NCBI GenBank assembly: GCA_007693855.1
Contig: RECU01000077.1
Span: 62,001-126,000, forward strand
Direction of reading: 5' to 3'
Source: Gammaproteobacteria bacterium
GTDB lineage: Bacteria > Pseudomonadota > Gammaproteobacteria > Steroidobacterales > PWYM01
DNA length: 64,000 nt
The position numbers were made by a program, and so were the translations under genes. The notes beneath the pieces are model-generated. The model did no database searches. It saw only the letters and a list, made by a program, of their open reading frames with translations, and had not been told where the DNA came from. The stretch's first letter is position 1. Every line of letters begins with the position of its first letter. Below are positions 6,568-45,880 of this stretch, in pieces.

Positions 6568-7872
6568 TCAGCCGGTTGCGAGCTGGCGCGCCAGCGCGTC
6601 GAGATCCGCGGCCATGCGATGCTCATGCGTCGGGCGACCGAGAAGCTCGGCCAGCGCGGGCGGCACAGGCACCGGTTGACCCACCAGCGGTTCGACGATC
6701 TCGTGGAACTTCGCCGGGTGGGCAGTGGCCACCAGCGTCCACGGGCCTTCGCCCAGCCTGGCACCGAGCTGGTCGTGAACGCGTGCGGCGGTGGCCGTAT
6801 GCGGGCACCACAGTTCGCCGCGCCGGGTGGCGTCAAGCCGGATCTGCTCGCGGATCTCCTCATCACTGACGCTGACCGCGGTGACCTTGCCGCGCAGGCG
6901 CTCGAATACCGGAAACAGGTGACGCAGCCGTTCCATGTTCGAGGGATCGCCGACGTCCATGGCCGAGGCCAGCGTCTGGACGCTGGGTCGGGCCGCGTAG
7001 TCGCCGGAGGCCAGGTAGTCGACGATGGTGCGATTGGCGTTGGTCGCCAGCACCACATGCTCGATCGGCAGGCCGCATTCCCGCGCCATGACGCAGGCCT
7101 GGGCATTGCCGAGGTTGCCCGTCGGGATGATGAACGAGGCGGTCGTGCCATGCTGGCGCTGGTGCCACAGGCTCGCGGCCGCGTAGTACACCGCCTGGGG
7201 CAGCAGCCTGCCGATATTGATGCTGTTGGCCGAGCACAGACGATGGTCCCGCGCGATCTCGGCATGCGAGAACGCCTGCTTGACCAGGCGCTGACAGGCG
7301 TCGAAGGGACCGTCGACCGCCAGCGTGAGCACATTGCCCCCCCAGCAGGCGAGCTGGTGCGCCTGGCGTGGCGACACCTGGCCCTCCGGATACAGCACCA
7401 CCACACGAAATCCCGCTCGACCGTGAAAGGCCGCAGCCACCGCGCCCCCGGTATCGCCCGAGGTCGCGACCAGGATGGTCAACGGCCGTGTGTCCGTCTG
7501 GCCCGCGTCCAGCCTCGCCATGCAGGCGGCCAGAAAGCGGGCGCCGACGTCCTTGAACGCGGCGGTGGGACCATGGAACAGTTCCAGCACACTCAACCGC
7601 GCCTCGGCCGGTGGCAGGGCGCGCAGCGGGATCGGAAAGGAGAACGCATCACTGCAGATCTCGTCGAGCGCCGCTTCGAGACGCGTGCCGGCGACGAACG
7701 GCGAGAGAAAGGTCACGGCGATGTCGACAATGTTTTCGCGCCCGGCGAACGCCTCGGCGGAGAAGTGTGGCAGCGTCGCCGGCACGAACAGTCCGCCGTC
7801 CGGGGCCAGGCCACGCAGCAGGGCTTCCTCCAGGTCGACCGGTCCGGCGCCGCGGGTGCTGAGATACTCCAT
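6568..7872 (-). CDS. thrC: Threonine synthase
   Basis: MEYLSTRG..., FHGPTAAFKDVGARFLA, ATSGDTGGAVAAAF, NSINIGRLLPQ. Confidence 0.95.
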   Translation of the reverse strand: MEYLSTRGAGPVDLEEALLRGLAPDGGLFVPATLPHFSAEAFAGRENIVDIAVTFLSPFVAGTRLEAALDEICSDAFSFPIPLRALPPAEARLSVLELFHGPTAAFKDVGARFLAACMARLDAGQTDTRPLTILVATSGDTGGAVAAAFHGRAGFRVVVLYPEGQVSPRQAHQLACWGGNVLTLAVDGPFDACQRLVKQAFSHAEIARDHRLCSANSINIGRLLPQAVYYAAASLWHQRQHGTTASFIIPTGNLGNAQACVMARECGLPIEHVVLATNANRTIVDYLASGDYAARPSVQTLASAMDVGDPSNMERLRHLFPVFERLRGKVTAVSVSDEEIREQIRLDATRRGELWCPHTATAARVHDQLGARLGEGPWTLVATAHPAKFHEIVEPLVGQPVPVPPALAELLGRPTHEHRMAADLDALARQLATG

Positions 7873-7883
7873 CGGCCCTACCC

Positions 7884-10367
7884 CTACAACGGCCCGGCCA
7901 GCACGCTGGTCAGGCGCAGAAGATCGGCGAACACGCCCCCGGCAGTGACCTCCGGGCCGGCCCCCGGGCCCTGGATGATCAGCGGGTTCTGACTGTAGCG
8001 ACGCGTCTGGAACTGCACGATGTTGTCGGTCAGGTTGATCCGGGCGAAGGGGTGGTCGCGGTTGAAGCGGGCAAGTTCGACGGAGGCCCTGCCATGGGTG
8101 ATGTCCAGGGTGCCCACATACCGCAGCACCTGGCCCGCCGCATCGGCCTCGCGCACCAGCGCACTCATCTCCTCGTCGTGCGCCTCGAGGCGATCGAGGA
8201 AACTCTCCACCGAACCCGTGTCGAGGCCTTCCGGGACGAGACTGCGCACCGCCAGCTCGGAGAGCTCCAGGCTGAGCCCCGCCTCACGGGCCAGGATGAT
8301 GGTTTTCCGCGCCACGTCCATGCCCGAGAGATCCTCGCGCGGATCAGGTTCGGTAAAGCCGCGGGCGCGGGCATCACGCACGATTTCGGAGAACCGCTGG
8401 CGCCCGTCATACTGGTTGAACAGGTAGGCCAGCGTGCCCGAGAAGATACCCTGGATGCTGTGGATCTCATCGCCGGTATCGCGCAGGTCCCGCAGTGTCT
8501 GGATGACGGGCAGCCCGGCGCCGACCGTGGTCTCGTAGAGATAATGACTGCCATGCTCGCGACACTGGCGGCGCAGTTCACCGTAGTCGCTCCAGGGGCC
8601 GCTGTTGGCCCGCTTGTTCGGGGTGATGACATGGATGCCGCGTCCCAGCCAGCCGGCATAGCGGGCGGCCACCGCGGCGCTGGCGGTGCAGTCGATGATC
8701 ACCGCGTGTGGCAGATGGTCGGCCTGGACGTGATCGACGAAGCGTTCCAGATCGGTGGTCTCGCCGTCGGTGTCGAGCAGCTCGCGCCAGCGCTCCAGCT
8801 CGGCATCCCTGGACGCCAGCAGCATCTGTCTTGAAGTGGCGATGCCGCGAACCCGCAGGTCGAGATTGAAATCCCGCCGCAGCCGCGGGCGTTCTGCCGC
8901 CAGCTGCTCGAGAAATGCCGCGCCGACCGTGCCGGGGCCGATCAGTCCGATCGACAGGGTCTTGGCCGAGAGATAGAAACTGGAGTGGACGGCACGCACC
9001 GCGCGTGCCGCATCCGCCCGGTCGACCACGGCCGAGATGTTGCGCTCGGAGGCCCCCTGCGCGATCGCGCGCACGTTGATGCCGGCACGGCCCAGGGTGC
9101 CGAAGAAGCGCCCGGCGACGCCGGGCAGCCCGGCCATGCCGTCTCCGACCACGGCGAGGATGCTGCAGTCGCGGCTCACGCCCACGCGATTCACGAGGCC
9201 CTGCTCGAGCTCGCTCCTGAACGCCTTCTCCACCACCTTGCGAACCTGGTCGGCGGCAGCTTCGGGCACCGCGAAACAGATCGAATGCTCCGAACTGCCC
9301 TGTGAAATCAGGATCACGGACACGCCGGCCGTGCGCAGCGCGCTGAACAGCCGGTCCGCCGTCCCCGGCACGCCGATCATGCCCGAGCCTTCGAGGTTGA
9401 TCAGGGCGACGCCGTCGATCGCGCTGACCCCCTTGACCTGCGCGCCGGGCGGTGGATCTGCAGCCACCCGGGTCCCGGGACCCTCCGGGTCGAAGGTGCT
9501 GCGGATCCGGATGGGAATGCCGTCGCGTACCGCCGGGGCCATGGTCTGGGGATGCAGCACCCGCGCACCGAAATAGGCGAGTTCCATGGCCTCGCTGTAG
9601 GAGAGGTCGTTGATGACGGCCGCCTCGGGCACCCGGCGTGGATCGCCGCTCATGACGCCGTTGACGTCGGTCCAGATATTGATTTCCTCGGCGCCCAGCA
9701 GCGCGCCGAAGATCGAGGCGGAGTAATCGCTGCCGTCCCGGCCGAGCGTGGTCTGCAGGCCATCGACGTCGCTGGCGATAAAGCCGGTGATCACCGCCAC
9801 GCCTTCGAAGCGGCGAAGGCCTCGGGCCTCGAGGCGCTGCGTGGTCTCTTCCCAGCACACGGCGGGTCCCATTTCGCCGGGTTCCACCACCAGGACCTGT
9901 CGGGCGTCCAGCCACTCGACGGGGTGGGGTTGATCACTGCGTTCGGCCAGGTATGCCGCCATCAAGCGCGCCGACCACAGCTCGCCATAGCCCGAGACCA
10001 GATCACGGCTGCGTGGGGAGGCGGCACGCACCAGCACCAGTGCCTGCAGCACGTGGCGAATGTCCTCGCAATCACGCTCGAAGGCCGCGAGCAGTGGCGC
10101 CCGTGCCGTGTCAGGCAGCAGCGCCTCGGCCACTTCCCGATAGCGTCCGGCCAGCGGGCCCAGCCCTTCGTCCGGATGCTCGCTGCCTCGCGAGGCCGCC
10201 GCCACCAGCGACAGCAGCGCATCGGTAAAGCCACCGAGCGCGGAAACCACGACGGCCAACCGCGGCCGCCCCTGCGCGACCACGATATCGCCGACGCGGC
10301 GGAAACGCTCGGCGGTGGCCAGGCTGCTGCCGCCAAACTTGTGAACAATCCAGGGGTGTGCGCTCAT
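7884..10367 (-). CDS. thrA: Bifunctional aspartate kinase/homoserine dehydrogenase
   Basis: VHKFGGSSLATAERF kinase N-terminus; ACT region; GPGTVGAAFLEQL, TPNKRANSGPW, GTLAYLFNQYD in the HSD half. Confidence 0.96.
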   Translation of the reverse strand: MSAHPWIVHKFGGSSLATAERFRRVGDIVVAQGRPRLAVVVSALGGFTDALLSLVAAASRGSEHPDEGLGPLAGRYREVAEALLPDTARAPLLAAFERDCEDIRHVLQALVLVRAASPRSRDLVSGYGELWSARLMAAYLAERSDQPHPVEWLDARQVLVVEPGEMGPAVCWEETTQRLEARGLRRFEGVAVITGFIASDVDGLQTTLGRDGSDYSASIFGALLGAEEINIWTDVNGVMSGDPRRVPEAAVINDLSYSEAMELAYFGARVLHPQTMAPAVRDGIPIRIRSTFDPEGPGTRVAADPPPGAQVKGVSAIDGVALINLEGSGMIGVPGTADRLFSALRTAGVSVILISQGSSEHSICFAVPEAAADQVRKVVEKAFRSELEQGLVNRVGVSRDCSILAVVGDGMAGLPGVAGRFFGTLGRAGINVRAIAQGASERNISAVVDRADAARAVRAVHSSFYLSAKTLSIGLIGPGTVGAAFLEQLAAERPRLRRDFNLDLRVRGIATSRQMLLASRDAELERWRELLDTDGETTDLERFVDHVQADHLPHAVIIDCTASAAVAARYAGWLGRGIHVITPNKRANSGPWSDYGELRRQCREHGSHYLYETTVGAGLPVIQTLRDLRDTGDEIHSIQGIFSGTLAYLFNQYDGRQRFSEIVRDARARGFTEPDPREDLSGMDVARKTIILAREAGLSLELSELAVRSLVPEGLDTGSVESFLDRLEAHDEEMSALVREADAAGQVLRYVGTLDITHGRASVELARFNRDHPFARINLTDNIVQFQTRRYSQNPLIIQGPGAGPEVTAGGVFADLLRLTSVLAGPL

Positions 10368-10401
10368 GCCAGGGTCCGTCGCGGGTCAAAACTTCGAAAG
10401 C

Positions 10402-11073
10402 CTACCGTGGGCATAACACCGCCCGCAATTGTGCTACGTCGGCAGCGTGTGCTGCCGCGAGCGCCCGCGCCTCGGGGTCATCACTGCCGTAGCCATAGGC
10501 CATCAGCACCGCCGGCACGCCGGCAGCCTGTGCCGCGCGCATGTCGGCGATCGAATCGCCGACCAGCCAGGTGTCGGTCGGCGCCAGCTGCAGTCTGTTC
10601 AGTAGCGTCGTGACCGGCAGCGGATCCGGTTTGCTGCGCGCCAGATCATCGCCACAGACCATGGCGCGGAATCGCGTGTCCAGGCCCAGGCGCTGCAGCA
10701 GGGGCTCGGCGAACTCGCGGGGCTTGTTGGTGACGATCGCCAACACGCTCCCCGCCTCGTCGAGGTGCTCGAGCAATTCAGGCATGTCCGGGTACGGTGC
10801 TGCGCCCTCTCCCAGGCACGCCCGGTAGTGCACTCGGAAGGCGGCAACGAACTCGCCGAGCGCGCCGCGATCGGCAGCGTCCATGCCGAGGGCCCGGAGG
10901 CTGCGCTGCAGCAGCGTCTCCATGCCACCGCCGATCCAACCCCGCACCACAGCCTCGGGCTGCACCGGCAGACGGCGCTCCATGAGCACGCGATTGACCG
11001 CCTGCGCAATCGAGGGCGCGGTATCGACCAGCGTGCCGTCCAGATCGAACAGCACGCCTCGCGGCGCGATCAC
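10402..11073 (-). CDS. gph: Phosphoglycolate phosphatase (HAD superfamily)
   Basis: [44 protein letters not shown]; overlaps rpe by 4 nt. Confidence 0.92.
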
Positions 11074-11744
11074 CGGCCGCGGGCCGCGGCCAGTTCGGCG
11101 CGCATGTGGCCTATGGCGTCGGCGTAGTCGGCGGCCCCGAAAATGGCCGAGCCCGCGACAAAGGTATCGGCCCCGGCCTCGGCGATGCGCCGGATGTTGT
11201 CGGCCTTGACGCCGCCGTCCACTTCCAGGCGGATCGGCAGACCGGCCGCATCGATGCGCCGGCGCACGGCCGCCAGCTTGTCCAGCGTGGCGTCGATGAA
11301 GCGCTGGCCGCCGAACCCCGGGTTCACCGACATCAGCAGGATCAGGTCGAGGCGATCGAGCACGTGGTCCAGCCAGGCCAGTGGCGTGGCGGGATTGAAC
11401 ACCAGCCCGGCCTTGCAGCCACAGTCGCGGATCAGCTGCAGCGTGCGGTCCAGGTGCTCGGTGCTCTCGGGATGCACACTGATCCAGCTCGCACCTGCTT
11501 CAGCGAACTCCGGGATCAGCCGATCCACCGGTTTGACCATCAGGTGCACGTCGATCGGCGCGGTGATGCCGTGCTTGCGCAGCGCGGCGCACACCAGGGG
11601 CCCCACCGTGAGATTGGGGACGTAGTGATTGTCCATGACGTCGAAGTGGACGATGTCGGCACCCGCGGCAAGCACGGCCTCGACGTCCTCTCCCAGACGG
11701 GCGAAATCGGCGGACAGTATCGATGGGGCGATCAGGTCATCCAT
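11070..11744 (-). CDS. rpe: Ribulose-phosphate 3-epimerase
   Basis: [59 protein letters not shown]. Confidence 0.97.
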
Positions 11745-23922: not shown

Positions 23923-25533
23923 TCAGTTGGCCAGGATCAGTGCTGCGGCCTTCTCGGCGATCATGAGGGTTGGCGCGTTGGTGTTGCCCCGGATGAGGTT
24001 GGGCATGATGGAGGCGTCGGCGACACGCAGCCCGGCAAGCCCATGCACCTTGAGCTGCGCGTCCACCACGGCGTCTGCCCCTGAACCCATGCGACACGTG
24101 CCCACCGGGTGATAAAGCGTATCCGCCCTGCGACGCAGTTCCGCTGCGATGGCCTCGTCTGTGTCGAGGTTGTCCAGCCCGTGCAGACTTTCGCGGGCAG
24201 TCGCTGCCAGGGGGGGCGTGGCGCCGATGCGTCGGGCGAGCCGGAAGCCTGCGACCAGCATGGCGAGGTCCCGCTCGTCGTCGAGAAACCGGGGATCGAT
24301 CACAGGCGCGGCGCGCGGGTCCGGTGAGGCGAGTCTTACCTCGCCCCGGCTCGCCGGCTGGAGCACGCAGACGTGAATGGAAAATCCCTGACCGAAGACC
24401 GGGCGGCGGTTGTGATCCACGATGAGTGCCGGGGCGAAATGCAATTGAAGATCGGGCGGCCCGGCGCCCGCCGAGCAACGGAGGAAAGCGCCCGCCTCTG
24501 CAAAGTTGCTCGCCAACAGGCCGTCACCGTGCCGCAAATAGCGCCAGAGCTCCCCCGGCATCCGCAGCACGGTGCCGACCGCGAGACCATGCAGCCCGGC
24601 GGCCCGGCGCCGCCAGTTGAGGGTGTAGTCGATGTGGTCCTGCAGATGTTGACCGACCCCCGGGAGGTCCGCTGTCACCTCTATTCCCAGGGCCTGCAGC
24701 TGTGGCCCGGGACCGATGCCGGAGAGCAGCAGGAGCTGAGGGGACCCGAAGGCCCCGGCGCACAGGATCACCTCGCGTCGGGCCGTCAAACGATGTCGGG
24801 TGTTGTCCTTGAACACTTCGACGCCGTACACCCGGCGCCCGTGGCTCAGGAGTCGTGAGGCGTGCGCATCGGTGAGCACGGTCAGCGACGGCCTGTGGCG
24901 CACCGGTCTCAGGTAGGCCGTGGCAGCACTGCAGCGACGACCAGCCGCCTGGGTGACCTGGTACAACCCGGCGCCGAGTTGCTGGGAGCCGTTGAAGTCG
25001 GCGTTTGCCGGAATCCCGCAGTTGCGCGCAGCTTCTACGAAGCGATGACTCCATGGGCTCGGCGAACGGAGACTGGCCACCGACAGTGGTCCGCCGCGGG
25101 CGTGCCATGGTCCCGCGAACTCCAGGTTGTCCTCTGCCCGGAGAAAATAGGGCAACACGTCAGACCATGCCCAACCCGGATTCCCCGCGCCGGCCCAGCG
25201 ATCGTAATCGTTCGGATGACCACGGATGTAGATCATGGCGTTGATGGCACTGCAGCCGCCCAACGTGCGTCCGCGTGGCTGGAAGCCGCAGCGTCCGTCG
25301 AGTCCCGGCTGGGGAACGGTCTGGAACTGCCAGTTGTAGCGTGTACCGCGCACCAGCACGGCCAGTGCGGCGGGGATCCTGAGCAGTGGACTGTCGTCTG
25401 GGGGGCCGGCCTCGACCAGGCAGACCCGATGCTCGCCCGAAGCGCTCAGCCGATTGGCCAGCACACAGCCTGCCGATCCACCACCGACGATGACGTAGTC
25501 GAATTCAGCATCTGAGGGTGATGTGGCGCTCAA
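23923..25533 (-). CDS. GMC family oxidoreductase (choline dehydrogenase-like)
   Basis: FDYVIVGGGSAGCVLANRLS, GRTLGGCSAINAMIYIRG, C-terminal YHPVGTCRMG. Confidence 0.93.
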   Translation of the reverse strand: MSATSPSDAEFDYVIVGGGSAGCVLANRLSASGEHRVCLVEAGPPDDSPLLRIPAALAVLVRGTRYNWQFQTVPQPGLDGRCGFQPRGRTLGGCSAINAMIYIRGHPNDYDRWAGAGNPGWAWSDVLPYFLRAEDNLEFAGPWHARGGPLSVASLRSPSPWSHRFVEAARNCGIPANADFNGSQQLGAGLYQVTQAAGRRCSAATAYLRPVRHRPSLTVLTDAHASRLLSHGRRVYGVEVFKDNTRHRLTARREVILCAGAFGSPQLLLLSGIGPGPQLQALGIEVTADLPGVGQHLQDHIDYTLNWRRRAAGLHGLAVGTVLRMPGELWRYLRHGDGLLASNFAEAGAFLRCSAGAGPPDLQLHFAPALIVDHNRRPVFGQGFSIHVCVLQPASRGEVRLASPDPRAAPVIDPRFLDDERDLAMLVAGFRLARRIGATPPLAATARESLHGLDNLDTDEAIAAELRRRADTLYHPVGTCRMGSGADAVVDAQLKVHGLAGLRVADASIMPNLIRGNTNAPTLMIAEKAAALILAN

Positions 25534-38617: not shown

Positions 38618-41119
38618 ATGCCTCGAATAAAAAGGCTGAATGCCGCCGTCATGACTGCATTCGCCGCATCGGCTGCGGCCCCCGCCGCCTACGCCGCCAC
38701 AGAAGAAATCATCGTCACGGCAACCAAGCGCGAAGCCTCCGCGCAGGATATCCCGGTTGCAGTCCAGGCTCTCGACCAGGCCGCCATCACCGATCTCAAC
38801 CTCGGTAACTTCGACGACGTCATCCGGTTCCTGCCGAACGTCTCCTCCGGCGGCCGCGGACCCGGGCAGTCCACCGTCTACATCCGGGGCATGGCCGTGG
38901 AACCGATCACCGTGCTGCTGTCCGGTGCCCAGGGGAGCGTACCCAACGTCGCGCTGTACCTCGATGAACAGCCGGTTACCGCGCCGGGCCGCAATCTCGA
39001 CGTGTATGCCGCCGACATGCAGCGTATCGAGGTGCTGCCCGGGCCGCAGGGCACGCTGTTCGGGGCCAGTTCCCAGGCGGGCACGGTCCGCATGATCACC
39101 AACAAGCCGAATTTCGAAGGGTTTTCAGCGGGTGTCGATGCGTCGATCGCCGACACCCGCAAGGGCGACCTGAGCTCCGGTCTCGAGGCCTATGTGAACC
39201 TGCCGGTGACCGAGACGTTTGCATTGCGCGGTGCGTTCTACAATGTCCGTCGAGGCGGTTACATCGATAATGTGTTCGGTACGTTCACCACCGATCCGTC
39301 GATCAACCCGGATTCGAATGCAACGCCTGCTGCTGTGAGCTATGACGAGGCGAGCAATCTTGCCCTGGCTGAAGACAACTTCAACGGCGGCTTCTACCAG
39401 GGCTTTCGCCTGGGCGGGCTCTACCTGATCAACGACGACTGGGACCTGCTGGTGCAGCATACCCGCCAGGAGCTCGGGGCCGATGGCGTGTTCGACTACG
39501 ACCCGGAGGTGGGGGATCTGCAGGCGACGCGCTTTTTCCCGGACCGCCTGCGCGACGAGTTCAATCTCACCAGCTGGACGCTCAACGGCCGCCTCGGCAT
39601 GCTTGATGTCATCTACACCGGTGGCTATCTCGACCGCGAGATCAACCAGTCGGTGGACTACACCGGCTACAACAACTCCGGCGCATTCATCAGCTATTAC
39701 ACCTGCACCTACGACAACCCCGCCTACATCGTGAACTACGGCATCGATCCGAGGTTCATCACGCCCGGCGGTCGCGAGTGCCGCACGCCGGTGAAGGGCG
39801 TGCAGATCTACCAGGAGCAGGAGCGCTTCACGCATGAGTTGCGCATCAACACACCGGTGGAGAATCGCTGGCGGCTCACGGCAGGCGTGTTCTATGACGA
39901 TTTCGAAATCCGTACCCAGGATGACTATCTTTACCTCGCCGTGACCGAGCTTGGCTTTGCACCCAATACGCCGATTGCCGGTGCGGCGGCCAACAACCCG
40001 AACACACGTGCCCCTGGCGTCGCGTTTTTCAATGATGTGATCCGCACCGAAGAACAGCTTGCCGTGTTCGGTGAGCTCACCTTGGACGTGATCCCGCAAC
40101 TCCTCGAGGTGACCCTGGGCCTGCGGTATTACGACCTCAAGCAGGAGTTCCGTGGCCAGTCGAGTTTCGCCAGCGGGATTTTTGCGGGCTCCATCGACCA
40201 GGGCTCCGGCCGTAACTACGACAACGCCGGCAGTGTCAACGCGCCGGGTTTCGATCCGGACGCGCCGCCCGCGCCCGGGGCGGTTGACCCGGCCGTGCCC
40301 GGCCACAGCACCGACCCCTTGAAGCTGACAGGCTGGATACCGAAACTGACGGTCAACGTCACGCCAACCGATGACGCGCTGCTGTATTTCACCTATTCGG
40401 AGGGCTTCCGGCCGGGTGGCTTCAACCGCGGCGGCGGGGTGTATTCGCTGAACCTCGACTTCCCGACGGTACCCACCACGTACGACACCGATGATGTGAA
40501 GAACTACGAGTTCGGCTGGAAGAGCCGGTGGCTGGATGGGCGCCTGCGCTTCAATGGCAGCCTGTACTACATTGACTGGACCGACATGCAGGTCAGCCGC
40601 TTCGATCCGGAAAACGTCTCCATCCTGACGTTCATCGAGAACTCCGCGGACTCGGAAATCTGGGGCCTCGAGGGCGATGTCGCCTGGGCGGCCACCGAGA
40701 ACCTCACCCTGTTCGGTGCGTTCTCCTACAACGACACCGAACTCAAGGCAGTTTCGGCGCAGATCGTGGAACTGCCCGAGGAAGGTGCGCGTCTGCCGCT
40801 CACGCCGGAATTCCAGGGCAATGTACGCGCCCGTTACGACTGGGGTGCGGTGGGCTACGAGTGGCACGTGCAGAGCGCGGTGCAGTACGCTAGTTCCAGC
40901 TTCAGCTCGCTGATCGTGCAGGAGCGGGAGAAACAGGACTCGTATACGACGCTTGATCTCTCGGCGGGCGTGGCGCGGGACAACTGGAGCGCCGGGCTGT
41001 ACATCGAGAACGTGACCGACAAGCGCGCCGAAGTGTTCATCAATTCGCAGGACGACATCCGGCGGATCGCGACCAACCGACCACGTACCGCAAGCCTGCG
41101 GTTCTCGGTGGACTTCTAG
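38618..41119 (+). CDS. TonB-dependent receptor
   Basis: Signal peptide; TonB box-like EEIIVTATKREAS; plug domain VYIRGM...RIEVLPGPQGTLFGASSQAGTVRMITNKP; C-terminal aromatic SVDF. Confidence 0.95.
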   Translation: MPRIKRLNAAVMTAFAASAAAPAAYAATEEIIVTATKREASAQDIPVAVQALDQAAITDLNLGNFDDVIRFLPNVSSGGRGPGQSTVYIRGMAVEPITVLLSGAQGSVPNVALYLDEQPVTAPGRNLDVYAADMQRIEVLPGPQGTLFGASSQAGTVRMITNKPNFEGFSAGVDASIADTRKGDLSSGLEAYVNLPVTETFALRGAFYNVRRGGYIDNVFGTFTTDPSINPDSNATPAAVSYDEASNLALAEDNFNGGFYQGFRLGGLYLINDDWDLLVQHTRQELGADGVFDYDPEVGDLQATRFFPDRLRDEFNLTSWTLNGRLGMLDVIYTGGYLDREINQSVDYTGYNNSGAFISYYTCTYDNPAYIVNYGIDPRFITPGGRECRTPVKGVQIYQEQERFTHELRINTPVENRWRLTAGVFYDDFEIRTQDDYLYLAVTELGFAPNTPIAGAAANNPNTRAPGVAFFNDVIRTEEQLAVFGELTLDVIPQLLEVTLGLRYYDLKQEFRGQSSFASGIFAGSIDQGSGRNYDNAGSVNAPGFDPDAPPAPGAVDPAVPGHSTDPLKLTGWIPKLTVNVTPTDDALLYFTYSEGFRPGGFNRGGGVYSLNLDFPTVPTTYDTDDVKNYEFGWKSRWLDGRLRFNGSLYYIDWTDMQVSRFDPENVSILTFIENSADSEIWGLEGDVAWAATENLTLFGAFSYNDTELKAVSAQIVELPEEGARLPLTPEFQGNVRARYDWGAVGYEWHVQSAVQYASSSFSSLIVQEREKQDSYTTLDLSAGVARDNWSAGLYIENVTDKRAEVFINSQDDIRRIATNRPRTASLRFSVDF

Positions 41120-41126
41120 GTGTGGC

Positions 41127-43118
41127 GTGAACACTCTGGAGGCTGAAGAAGAGCCCGCGCGTCGCGCGCGGGAACTGCTTCAGCTGGGCCAGGCGGGGGC
41201 CGCTGCGCTGACGGCGGAGCGTGCCCTCGCCGACGCCCCGCGGGATCGTGACCTGCTGTACATCCTGGCGGTCGCGCAGCGCTACGGGCGCCAGTACGAG
41301 GCTGCAGACCAGACCCTGCAGCGTCTCCTGGAAGTGACACCGGGGTATGGCCGGGCGTTTCAGGAGCTCGGGCACCTGCGCCGCCGCCAGGCACGTGACG
41401 CCGAGGCGATGCAGGCCTACCAGCAGGCCGTGGTCGCCAATCCGGGGCTGCCGGCGAGCTGGAAAGCGTTGGCCGATCTGCAGACCCGCCATGGCCTGGT
41501 CCGCGAGGCCGCCAACTCCAGAGCACAGCACGAACGACTGCTGGGGCTGCCGCCTGAGCTGGTCTCGGTCACGAGTTTCATGCATGAGGGCAAGCTCTAC
41601 AAGGCCGAGCAGCTGTGCCGGGCCTTCCTGCAGCGCGAGCCGCATCATCCTGAGGCCATGCGCCTGCTCGCGGCTCTCGGGGTCCGGCTGCATGTGCTCG
41701 ACGACGCCGAGTTTCTGCTGGAGAGCGTGCTGGAGTTCAAGCCCGATTTCCTGCTGGCGCGTATCGATTACGTGGACGTGCTGCAGCGGCGGCAGAAGTA
41801 CGCCAGAGCCCTCGAGGAGGCCCGGACGATCCTGACGACCGATCCGGCAAACCCGGCGTTTCGCAGCCTGTTCGCCAATCAATGCATGACGGTGGGCGAT
41901 TACCCACAGGCCCTGCAGCTCTACGACGAACTGCTGGCTGAAACCCCGGACAACCCGCAACTGAATCTGGTGCGTGGCCATGCGCTCAAGACCATCGGCC
42001 GCCAAGCCGAGGCGATCGATGCTTACCGCCGGGCCGCCGCAGGCCGACCCGGTTTCGGCGATGCGTACTGGAGCCTGGCCAACCTCAAGACCTATCGCTT
42101 CGAGGACCGTGAAGTGGCTGCGATGCGCGAGCAGGAGGCCCTGCCGGGCCTGGTCAGCGAAGACCGCTATCACCTCTGCTTCGCGCTCGGCAAGGCTCTC
42201 GAAGACCGCGCCTGCTACGAAGAGGCGTTCGGCTACTACACCCGTGGCAACACGCTGAAACGCGAGACGCTGCGCTACAGCACCGAACGCACCGAGCTCG
42301 AGTTCCAACGCCAGGCCGAGGTCTGCACCGTGGAGATGCTCGCCGCACGCGCAGGCCAGGGGCATCCCGGGGAGGATCCGATTTTCATCGTCGGTCTCCC
42401 GCGGGCGGGCTCCACGCTGATCGAGCAGATCCTCGCGTCCCATTCCCAGGTGGACGGGACCCTCGAGCTGCCGAACATTCTGGCCATCGCGCATCGCCTG
42501 CGTGGCCGGCGGCGGGTCGATGAGCAGCCACTCTACCCGGGCGTGCTGAGCGAGCTGTCCCCGGAACAACTGCACGAACTCGGCGAGGAATACCTGCGGG
42601 ACACGGCGGTCCATCGTCAGGGCGCACCACGGTTCACGGACAAGATGCCGAACAACTTTCGGCATATCGGCCTGATCAGTCTGATCCTGCCGAATGCCAG
42701 GATCATCGATGCCCGTCGCCACCCGATGGCCTGCTGTTTCAGCGGCTACAAGCAGCTGTTTGCCGAAGGCCAGGAATTCACCTATGACCTCGATGATCTC
42801 GGTCGTTACTACCGCGGCTATGTCGAGCTGATGGACCACTGGGACCGGGTGTTGCCAGGTCGGATTCTGCGGGTCCAGCACGAGCAGCTGGTGGATAACT
42901 TCGAGCACGAGGTCAGGCGGTTGCTGGAGTTCTGTGGTCTGCCCTTCGAGCAGGACTGCCTGGAATTCCACCGCACCCGCAGAGTCGTGCGCACGGCCAG
43001 TTCCGAGCAGGTACGCCGCCCCCTGAACCGCGAAGGCCTCGAGCAATGGCGGCATTTCTCACCGTGGCTCGGGCCGCTGGAGCGCGCCCTGGGTCCGGCG
43101 CTGGTCGAGGCGCCGTGA
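41127..43118 (+). CDS. TPR-repeat sulfotransferase family protein
   Basis: N-terminal TPR-like repeats; C-terminal PAPS-binding FIVGLPRAGSTLIEQILASHSQVDGTLEL and RHPMACCFSGYKQLF. Confidence 0.9.
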   Translation: MNTLEAEEEPARRARELLQLGQAGAAALTAERALADAPRDRDLLYILAVAQRYGRQYEAADQTLQRLLEVTPGYGRAFQELGHLRRRQARDAEAMQAYQQAVVANPGLPASWKALADLQTRHGLVREAANSRAQHERLLGLPPELVSVTSFMHEGKLYKAEQLCRAFLQREPHHPEAMRLLAALGVRLHVLDDAEFLLESVLEFKPDFLLARIDYVDVLQRRQKYARALEEARTILTTDPANPAFRSLFANQCMTVGDYPQALQLYDELLAETPDNPQLNLVRGHALKTIGRQAEAIDAYRRAAAGRPGFGDAYWSLANLKTYRFEDREVAAMREQEALPGLVSEDRYHLCFALGKALEDRACYEEAFGYYTRGNTLKRETLRYSTERTELEFQRQAEVCTVEMLAARAGQGHPGEDPIFIVGLPRAGSTLIEQILASHSQVDGTLELPNILAIAHRLRGRRRVDEQPLYPGVLSELSPEQLHELGEEYLRDTAVHRQGAPRFTDKMPNNFRHIGLISLILPNARIIDARRHPMACCFSGYKQLFAEGQEFTYDLDDLGRYYRGYVELMDHWDRVLPGRILRVQHEQLVDNFEHEVRRLLEFCGLPFEQDCLEFHRTRRVVRTASSEQVRRPLNREGLEQWRHFSPWLGPLERALGPALVEAP

Positions 43119-43139
43119 ACCCCATGCAGTCCTGAGCTG

Positions 43140-44048
43140 ATGTCCGCGGCGCCTGCGCCTCTGCTGGCGAGTCTCGAAGCCGAGAGCATCCATATCCTGC
43201 GTGAGGCGCTGGCCGAAGCGGCGCAGCCGGTGCTGCTGTTCTCGCTTGGCAAGGACAGCTGCGTGCTCCTGGAACTGGCCCGGCGGGCGTTCTACCCGGC
43301 TGCCCTGCCCTTCCCGCTTTTGCACATCGACACCAGCTGGAAATTCCGCGAGATGTACACGTTTCGGGAGCGCGTAGCCGGGCAGCCCGGCCTGGAGCTG
43401 CGGGTCCATCGCAATGAGGAGGCGATCGCCCGCGGGGTGACACCGTTCACCCATGGGCCGAGCGACTACACCGCCCTGTTGAAAACCACCGCTTTGCGTG
43501 CCGCCCTCGATCACTTCGGATTTGATCTGGCGATTGGCGGCGCCCGTCGCGATGAGGATCCGGTGCGTGCCAAGGAGCGGATTTTTTCGCTGCGCAGCGC
43601 GCAGCATGGCTGGGAACCCCGGGCACAGCGGGCGGAGCCCTGGTCGTTGTATAACGGCGCCCACCTTCCCGGCGAGAGCGTGCGCGTGTTCCCATTGTCG
43701 AACTGGACCGAGCTCGACGTCTGGCGCTACATCCGCTGGCGCGCAATCGATGTGGTGCCGTTGTATTTCGCCGCTGAGCGCAGCTGTATCGAGCGCCAGG
43801 GCCAGCTGCTGGTGGTGGATGACGCGCGCATGCCGCTCGCAGCGGGTGAACGGCCTGCGCCGCGCCAGGTACGGTTCAGGACACTCGGCTGTTATCCGCT
43901 CACCGCGGCCATGCCCTCCGCTGCCCGCACAGTCGATGACATCATCGCCGAGCTCGAGAGCGACGGTCATGGCGAGCGGCGAGGCCGACTGATCGATCAT
44001 GACGCCCCGGGCGCCATGGAGCGCAAGAAACTGGAGGGATACTTCTGA
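43140..44048 (+). CDS. cysD: Sulfate adenylyltransferase subunit 2
   Basis: [22 protein letters not shown] (PP-loop), [21 protein letters not shown]-like block, [14 protein letters not shown]. Confidence 0.95.
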
Positions 44049-44077
44049 GCGCCGGGCCTCGGGACCTGCTGCGACTG

Positions 44078-45880
44078 GTGATCTGCGGCAGTGTGGACGA
44101 CGGCAAGAGCACCTTGCTGGGGCGCCTTCTGGACGACGCCGGGCTGCTCCATGTTGAGGAACGTGAGCGCCTGCTCACGGCTGATCCGAACTCGCCAGAC
44201 CCGCAATATGCCCGGGTGCTGGATGGACTGCTGGCCGAGCACGCCCAAGGGATCACCATCGATGTCGCCTACCGCAGCATGGAACTCGCGGGGCGTCGTT
44301 ACCTCGTCGCCGACGCGCCCGGCCACCAGCAGTACACCCGTAACATGATCACTGCGGCGACCAGCGCCGATGCGGCGCTGGTGCTCTGCGACGTCACGCA
44401 GGGGCTGACCGCACAGACCCGACGTCATCTCGCACTGCTGGCGGTGCTCGAGGTTCGCCATGTGGCCCTGCTCGTCAACAAGCTGGATCTGGTCGGCTAC
44501 GCACCGGAGGCGTTCCATGCGCTCGCCGACGGCTTCGGCGAGCTCGCCCGGCGCCTTGGCCTGGCCGATGCGCAGAGTCTGCCGGTATCGGCCCTGCACG
44601 GCGAGAACCTGCTCGAGCGAGGGGGCCGCCTCGCATGGTTTGACGGGCCCAGTGTGGCGGCCTACCTGGCCAGCCTGCCGGTACGCGAGCAAATCGTCGG
44701 GCCGCTGCGGCTGCCGGTGCAATGGGTGCACCGCCTCGAGGATGGCAGCCGCGCGCTCGCCGGACGGCTGAGCGGGGCGGGCCTCCGCCCAGGTCAGGCG
44801 GTACGCATCCACCCCGGCAATGCTGAGGCGCGCGTGGTCCGTCTCCTGGCACCCGAGGCTGACCTGCCCGAGGCGGCCCCCGGCAGTTCGGTGCTCGTCA
44901 CGCTCGATCAGCCTGTCGATGCTTCGCGGGGCAGCGTGCTGGCAGGCAGCGAGGAGCCGCCCACCGTCACCGACCAGTTCCAGGCGACACTGATCTGGCT
45001 TGGTCGGCAGCCCTTGTACGCCGGGCGTCGCTACACCCTGAAACTCGGCACCACGCGTGTCGGCGCCTCGGTGACCGATATCCGGCACCGCCTCGATCCC
45101 ACCGATCTCTCAGCGACACCCGCACGCGAGCTCGGCGTGCACGAGATTGGCGTCTGCAACCTCGCCCTGGATCGTCCCGTGCCGCTGGATGCGTTCAGGG
45201 ACAGCCGGGAGACCGGGTCATTCATTCTGATCGACCCGTTCGACCACGATACCGTGGCTGCCGGGATGGTGAGGCATGCCTTGCGGCGTGCCGCCACCCT
45301 GCACTGGCAGCAGGCAGTCGTGGATCGACATGCGCGGGCCGCCATGAAGGGACAGCAGCCTTTCGTACTCTGGTTTACCGGCCTGTCCGGCGCCGGCAAA
45401 TCCACCATCGCCAACCTGGTCGAGCAGCGCCTGCACGCCAAGGGGCGACATACGTTCCTGATGGACGGTGACAATCTCCGGCAGGGACTGAACCGGGATC
45501 TCGGCTTTACCCCGGGCGACCGGGTCGAAAACATTCGCCGCAGCGCGGAGGTCGCGCGGCTCATGACCGAGGCTGGACTGATCGTACTCACGGCCTTCAT
45601 CTCGCCCTACCGCGCCGAGCGCGAGATGGCGCGCGAACTGTTCCCGGCTGACGCCTTTCTGGAGGTGTTCGTGGACGCGCCGCTGTCCCTGGTCGAGGCC
45701 CGTGATCCCAAAGGGCTCTACGCGCGGGCGCGCCGGGGTGAGCTGGTGAACTTTACCGGGCTGGATGCGCCCTATGAGCGCCCGACGCATCCGGACATCC
45801 ACCTCGACACGGCGCGTGACAGCGCAGATGTCGCGGCGGACGCGGTACTCGAGGAGCTGCGCCGCCGCGACCTGATCTGA
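44078..45880 (+). CDS. cysNC: Bifunctional sulfate adenylyltransferase subunit 1/adenylylsulfate kinase (start codon uncertain)
   Basis: CGSVDDGKSTLLGRLLDD GTPase, DAPGHQQYTRNM; C-terminal APS kinase FTGLSGAGKSTIANLVEQRL. Confidence 0.94.
   Translation: MICGSVDDGKSTLLGRLLDDAGLLHVEERERLLTADPNSPDPQYARVLDGLLAEHAQGITIDVAYRSMELAGRRYLVADAPGHQQYTRNMITAATSADAALVLCDVTQGLTAQTRRHLALLAVLEVRHVALLVNKLDLVGYAPEAFHALADGFGELARRLGLADAQSLPVSALHGENLLERGGRLAWFDGPSVAAYLASLPVREQIVGPLRLPVQWVHRLEDGSRALAGRLSGAGLRPGQAVRIHPGNAEARVVRLLAPEADLPEAAPGSSVLVTLDQPVDASRGSVLAGSEEPPTVTDQFQATLIWLGRQPLYAGRRYTLKLGTTRVGASVTDIRHRLDPTDLSATPARELGVHEIGVCNLALDRPVPLDAFRDSRETGSFILIDPFDHDTVAAGMVRHALRRAATLHWQQAVVDRHARAAMKGQQPFVLWFTGLSGAGKSTIANLVEQRLHAKGRHTFLMDGDNLRQGLNRDLGFTPGDRVENIRRSAEVARLMTEAGLIVLTAFISPYRAEREMARELFPADAFLEVFVDAPLSLVEARDPKGLYARARRGELVNFTGLDAPYERPTHPDIHLDTARDSADVAADAVLEELRRRDLI

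Follow-up and report, generated by a model that had tools for sequence, protein, structure and literature searches.

The 64,000 nt window analysed here (contig RECU01000077.1, positions 62,001 to 126,000) comes from a gammaproteobacterial genome and contains a run of four genes on the + strand. These encode a TonB-dependent receptor (TBDR), a sulfotransferase (ST) carrying tetratricopeptide repeats (TPRs), and CysD and CysNC, the enzymes that make 3′-phosphoadenosine 5′-phosphosulfate (PAPS). The receptor and the ST occur as a conserved pair in Alpha- and Gammaproteobacteria, and that they form a functional partnership is very nearly certain. The most likely reading of this partnership, ranked ahead of sulfation of a small molecule and given roughly an even chance, is that the ST sulfates tyrosine residues in L4, an outer loop of the receptor.

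Conservation of the receptor and sulfotransferase as a pair

The receptor gene (38618..41119, + strand) encodes 833 amino acids comprising a signal peptide, a PF07715 plug and a PF00593 barrel (Pfam); its product is the partner of the ST and its proposed substrate. The ST gene (41127..43118, + strand) has a GTG start, encodes 663 amino acids and follows after a gap of 7 nt. Homologues of the ST were fetched with the ST alone as query, giving 80 named loci that sample Parvularcula, Woeseia, Hyphomonas, Erythrobacter, Novosphingobium, Sphingobium, Dyella, Rhodanobacter, Idiomarina and other genera. Culturable carriers include Erythrobacter sp. NAP1, Sphingobium xenophagum and Idiomarina ramblicola (loci L155, L157 and L199). 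A TBDR is the immediate neighbour in 78 of the 80, lying just upstream in the same orientation in almost all of them, so the neighbourhood survey proposed in the first-pass annotation does reveal conserved co-occurrence. Within the same order, too, a TBDR lies beside most full-length ST homologues. Since a genome like that of the host contains only ~44 TBDR barrel matches in some 3000 genes (a gene number estimated from genome size), an adjacency as frequent as this is not due to chance.

Among 123 TBDR-ST pairs the receptor is upstream on the same strand in 103, downstream on the same strand in 15 and on the opposite strand in 5. Since order and strand vary while the association holds, the association outlives rearrangement. 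Distances between STs correlate with those between their receptors (r=0.85 over 111 pairs). For the 31 pairs from genomes that hold more than one, r is 0.88 between true partners, compared with 0.25 +/- 0.11 when partners are shuffled within genomes, and none of 5000 shuffles reached 0.88; this shuffle removes the effect of species history but leaves that of co-inheritance through linkage. Close full-length ST homologues (at the strict threshold of E<=1e-100) are present in 30 of 399 evenly drawn Pseudomonadota genomes (~7%), representing 22 of 213 genera.

The sulfotransferase and its relationship to tyrosine sulfotransferases

The ST has the layout given in the first-pass annotation, with TPR repeats (matched by TPR families) extending from residue ~10 to 310-320, followed by a PF13469 sulfotransferase domain at 418-608 (E=7e-53). 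Residues 424-440 are LPRAGSTLIEQILASHS. Its AlphaFold2 model has a pLDDT of 91.5. The N-terminal sequence, read directly, shows no signal peptide, and the enzyme should therefore be cytosolic, where PAPS is found.

A first search of the PDB that included the TPRs was dominated by TPR matches. For the catalytic domain the closest solved relatives are human and other protein-tyrosine sulfotransferases (TPST1 and TPST2, E=2.5e-9, range to 1e-6), with weaker matches to CurM (1.7e-4) and SULT1A (0.2). R426, T430, E447, K506, R531 and S625 are invariant in 50 ST homologues, and S539 is conserved in at least 90% of them. R426/T430, R531/S539, K506 and S625 align with TPST motifs, while ungapped reading puts E447 at the position of the catalytic Glu of TPST. 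We take R426/T430 to belong to the 5′-phosphosulfate loop, R531/S539 to be the Arg and Ser that contact the 3′-phosphate, and E447 and K506 to be catalytic. Comparison of the C-terminal domain with TPST thus finds the PAPS-binding residues in place. When the whole ST model was compared using Foldseek, the top matches were O-GlcNAc transferase (OGT) and SPINDLY, through the TPR superhelix, and the top rows held only TPR proteins. The assignment of the sulfotransferase domain therefore rests on sequence, by which it is related to the tyrosine sulfotransferases and retains the PAPS site and the candidate catalytic residues.

In OGT and SPINDLY the TPR arm feeds a polypeptide to the transferase, and the architecture of the ST thus favours a protein substrate. 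This bears on the main rival explanation, that the ST sulfates a small molecule, which could be a ligand that the receptor imports or a product that is secreted and then recaptured by it; the receptor would then be a partner in the pathway rather than a target of modification. We regard this as somewhat unlikely. TBDRs normally import small molecules, and CurM, whose catalytic domain also matched, is a sulfotransferase that does not act on protein; but the matches to such enzymes are the weaker ones, the domain is nearest to the protein-tyrosine sulfotransferases, and it is joined to a protein-binding TPR arm.

PAPS supply

The third gene, cysD (43140..44048, + strand), begins 21 nt after the ST gene and encodes the small subunit of ATP sulfurylase (NF009214 and TIGR02039 above cut-off). 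The fourth, cysNC (44078..45880, + strand; NF004035 above cut-off), encodes the GTPase subunit of ATP sulfurylase fused to adenosine 5′-phosphosulfate (APS) kinase, which makes PAPS. Both products pass the NCBIfam cut-offs for the functions that had been assigned to them on first reading. The GTG start of cysNC lies 29 nt after cysD and its frame is open farther upstream, so that this gap is 29 nt or less; in the relative G001 the start of cysNC overlaps the stop of cysD. The four genes are thus as co-directional and tightly packed as was first described, and none of the junctions between them contains a terminator-like site on the coding strand.

CysD and CysNC are classical enzymes of sulfate assimilation, and they might lie beside a receptor by chance. 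This is contradicted by the content of the host genome (3.28 Mb, 114 contigs, rated 100% complete; the window is on contig C75). The PF01507 profile takes in the PAPS reductase CysH as well as CysD, and its sole match in the genome is the cysD of the operon. There is therefore no cysH recognisable with this profile, and PF01077 (sulfite/nitrite reductase) is without any match. APS kinase (PF01583) is likewise represented by a single match, the cysNC of the operon. The first-pass annotation had remarked that no cysH or cysI was adjacent; none is found elsewhere in the genome either, and cysD and cysNC cannot be taken as simply the assimilatory copies. Lacking a recognisable route from PAPS to sulfide, the host must use PAPS for sulfation, and we are confident that the PAPS made here is dedicated to that purpose. 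The same four-gene order is present in two genomes of the same genus (G001 and G004), which also lack PF01077. Given in addition that the TBDR-ST pair is conserved without cysDNC elsewhere, the chance placement of ordinary assimilation genes is extremely improbable.

In another family (G015, G028, G039 and G050) APS-kinase genes lie ~3-23 kb from the ST, and PF01077 is absent again; a CysD-like gene adjoins the APS-kinase gene in G015 and G050, where the flank was read. Adjacency of cysD-cysNC to the ST is otherwise limited to close relatives. Thus of the dedicated four-gene module first suggested, the receptor and ST unit is conserved, while the linkage to cysD-cysNC is confined to close relatives and, more loosely, to this one family. 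Since cysDNC is mostly unlinked elsewhere, it has been added locally to a core of two genes. We also note that three loci (L046:11357-12825, L047 and L186) have a CysD-like gene, below the TIGR02039 cut-off, together with a stand-alone APS kinase, with no CysN nearby.

The receptor and loop L4

The AlphaFold2 model of the receptor has a pLDDT of 86.6, and its top Foldseek matches are FyuA, Fiu and FptA, with FhuA also matched. In this model loop L4 (residues 347-392, codons 39656..39793, + strand) connects strand 329-347 with strand 393-411; the segment is flanked by the short turns 327-328 and 412-417, which place L4 outside the cell. In the window receptor the loop reads D347-Y348-T-G-Y351 ... 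Y360-Y361-T-C363 ... C388-R-T-P391, corresponding to the motif DYxxY...YYxC...CxxP, with C363-C388 as a candidate disulfide.

We compared 123 paired with 27 unpaired receptors. D347, Y348, Y351, Y361, C363, C388 and P391 are 87-95% conserved in the paired receptors. In the unpaired receptors the same positions, D347 excepted, are conserved at 0-15%, and the segment is mostly gap. DYxxY is present in 106 of the 123 paired receptors and in 1 of the 27 unpaired (Fisher p=1e-16). In the paired receptors tyrosine makes up 17-18% of L4 (a mean of 6.6 per loop), as against 0.2-4.6% of the other ten outer loops. The nearest unpaired receptors (27, besides two from the genome G057) have 0-4 tyrosines in L4, and across this group of 29 tyrosine averages 5.0% of the loop, compared with 17.4% in paired receptors.

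Strong binding by human TPST1 depends on an acidic residue at -1, and the acceptor site is expected to be flexible or unfolded (PMC5562738). Both preferences are satisfied by D347-Y348 as long as the receptor chain has not folded. The properties of L4 favour the receptor as the substrate of the ST, which we judge to be about evenly poised, and the tyrosines of L4 are quite possibly the sites of sulfation, a claim that we hold a little less firmly.

Instead, the target of the ST might be some other protein, a glycan of the cell surface, or residues of the receptor outside L4, such as tyrosine Y114 of the plug or conserved Ser and Thr. Y114 lies within a YLDE sequence, and its conservation is 94% among paired receptors as against 26% among unpaired; GT8 glycosyltransferases neighbour some of the distant TPR-STs. 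However, conservation of residues in the plug is in keeping with a structural role, and neither a glycosyltransferase nor a gene for an alternative protein is constant near the pair. We consider this explanation distinctly unlikely.

A proposed mechanism, and the points that weigh against it

We infer the receptor as substrate, the residues that are modified, the timing of the modification and the nature of the ligand, leading to the following scheme. CysD and CysNC would convert sulfate into PAPS. The cytosolic ST would bind the co-encoded receptor while it is still unfolded, using the TPR superhelix as a peptide-binding arm in the manner of OGT. It would then sulfate tyrosines of the future L4, with Y348 as the prime site followed by Y351 and Y360/361; export through Sec and assembly of the barrel would come afterwards. 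The sulfated and probably disulfide-stapled L4 would create an anionic, aromatic surface at the receptor mouth, tuning the binding of ligand. The ligands may be cationic quaternary amines, to judge from the frequent BCCT, MttB, dimethylglycine-dehydrogenase-like and aldehyde-dehydrogenase neighbours found in relatives.

Several observations weigh against sulfation of L4. The paired receptors and two from G057 form one clade (116 leaves, support 0.999), so the L4 motif and the linkage to an ST may share a single origin rather than being independent. The two G057 receptors are the only ones having DYxxY with intact flanks and no neighbouring ST, although that genome contains several STs. In the most divergent pairs L4 is changed, and co-diversification of receptor and enzyme could arise from linkage alone. 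In five genomes with a TBDR-ST pair (G016, G023, G029, G033 and G051) neither APS kinase nor CysD nor Sat is recognisable, and a sixth (G055) has Sat with no clear APS kinase. Some of the genomes lacking PAPS genes are draft metagenome-assembled genomes, yet G023 has a completeness rating of 99% and the picture is the same in three small genomes; either the PAPS route has diverged in these bacteria or a different reaction occurs there. Moreover, other TPR-STs may use other acceptors, as discussed below.

Lastly, the tyrosine-rich loop could be merely a ligand site. In its full form this explanation makes the loop an aromatic cage for the ligand, with the linked ST unrelated to it and the linkage historical. 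The single-clade origin of the paired receptors would fit such a history, but the association persists across two classes despite changes of order and strand, and the catalytic residues are invariant. We give it almost no weight.

Neighbouring genes and the ligand

Upstream of the operon is a relA/spoT-like gene, and ~10 nt downstream is a convergent gene for lipoamide dehydrogenase. The gaps between the four genes are too short to hold a gene for a RaxX-like peptide, and the 267 nt upstream contain only short unremarkable open reading frames; with these two flanking genes as neighbours, no RaxAB-type peptide exporter was found beside the locus. A promoter-like match 5′ of the receptor gene was at chance level and was discarded. 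A gene for a GMC oxidoreductase of the choline-dehydrogenase-like family is located at 23923-25533 on the − strand of the window, ~13 kb from the operon.

No third gene is constant beside the TBDR-ST pair. The commonest encodes a BCCT-family transporter, near 59 of 136 ST loci (e.g. L144:3393-5015), and fewer loci have genes nearby for MttB-like methyltransferases, dimethylglycine-dehydrogenase-like oxidoreductases, aldehyde and GMC dehydrogenases or M19 dipeptidases. This resembles quaternary-amine catabolism, and suggests a quaternary-amine ligand for many paired receptors in a setting of uptake and breakdown. Because BCCT genes are not adjacent in the host genome, we do not confidently extend the claim to the window receptor. 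The same context would suit a small-molecule substrate for the ST, but the receptor is the only constant neighbour, the catabolic genes being variable or, as in the window, missing.

Other TPR-sulfotransferases and their partners

Distant TPR-STs (~31% identity) adjoin autotransporters on plasmids of Enterobacter sp. 638 (L264), Thalassospira (L268), Kluyvera (L269) and Pacificitalea (L266). In the enterobacterial loci a GT8 glycosyltransferase gene then follows. On a plasmid of Comamonas endophytica (L274:1-6504) a TPR-ST lies between a 12.9-kb cadherin-domain gene and TolC/ABC/HlyD type-I secretion genes. The host genome itself encodes a second Sulfotransfer_3 protein of 530 amino acids with the P-loop GPPRAGKSLLE (L074:8480-10072, contig C8 of genome G000). 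Its gene is located between flgL (7213-8454) and flagellin (10265-11470), and this position inside the flagellin locus suggests sulfation of flagellin. The partners of TPR-STs are thus repeatedly exported surface proteins, with exceptions in Hirschia, Novosphingobium EMRT-2 and Roseibium. A small-molecule substrate leaves these flagellin and autotransporter partners, as well as the tyrosine-rich L4, unexplained.

The idea of a tyrosine loop was also considered for the autotransporter partners and rejected, their sequences being neither DY- nor Tyr-rich, and we therefore claim tyrosine as the acceptor only for the TBDR clade. More tentatively, tyrosine sulfation of outer-membrane receptors may be widespread, each receptor of a large TBDR clade having a dedicated TPR-ST that acts on L4 in the cytosol, with related TPR-STs modifying flagellin and autotransporters. 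No DNA-level relative of the Enterobacter TPR-ST was found in E. coli genomes, and phages gave only one short fragmentary match. On a plasmid of Asticcacaulis sp. DW145 (L262:2753-8827) a TBDR, a sulfotransferase of family 2, an Asp/Asn beta-hydroxylase and a TPR-ST are encoded in a single run, and these may be another set of enzymes that modify a receptor.

Significance and comparison with known systems

If sulfation of L4 is correct, protein sulfation would be a common modification of the bacterial surface, and the synthesis of PAPS in genomes unable to assimilate sulfate would be explained. It would also provide chemical tuning of nutrient receptors that serve in addition as receptors for phages and bacteriocins. 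The exact residues are predicted, and hence the proposal can be tested by mass spectrometry. The components are of known kinds; as far as we have checked, the fixed pairing of TBDR and ST and the receptor loop have not been described. A search of the open-access full-text literature, which leaves out most subscription papers and all preprints, returned nothing relevant on TPR-sulfotransferases beside TonB receptors, BCCT genes or autotransporters.

In 2019 tyrosine sulfation in bacteria was said to be documented for RaxX alone (PMC6637879). As is proposed for the window ST, RaxST of Xanthomonas oryzae is a PAPS-dependent bacterial sulfotransferase encoded beside its exported substrate, and a supply of PAPS is needed. 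The acceptor context in RaxX is of the D-Y type, like the proposed site in L4. However, RaxST acts on a small peptide with a double-glycine leader that is exported by RaxAB, and the window locus has neither a peptide of this kind nor its exporter. The window enzyme also has a TPR arm of ~310 residues, and its partner is an outer-membrane receptor. The parallel that the first-pass annotation drew with the rax genes therefore stands as a bacterial sulfotransferase accompanied by PAPS genes; RaxST is an analogy and not a demonstrated relative.

In the autotransporter heptosyltransferase systems Aah/AIDA-I and TibC/TibA the modifying enzyme is encoded beside its outer-membrane substrate and acts before export. 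These differ in that autotransporters are glycosylated, rather than a TonB receptor sulfated. OGT and SPINDLY share with the ST a TPR superhelix fused to a protein-modifying transferase, but they transfer sugar and have an unrelated catalytic fold. TPST1 and TPST2 are the best solved matches of the catalytic domain, with conserved PAPS-site residues and the candidate catalytic Glu. They are Golgi membrane enzymes without TPRs, whereas the window ST appears to be cytosolic; yet they sulfate the extracellular parts of receptors such as CCR5 and CXCR4, just as we propose for the ST of the window.

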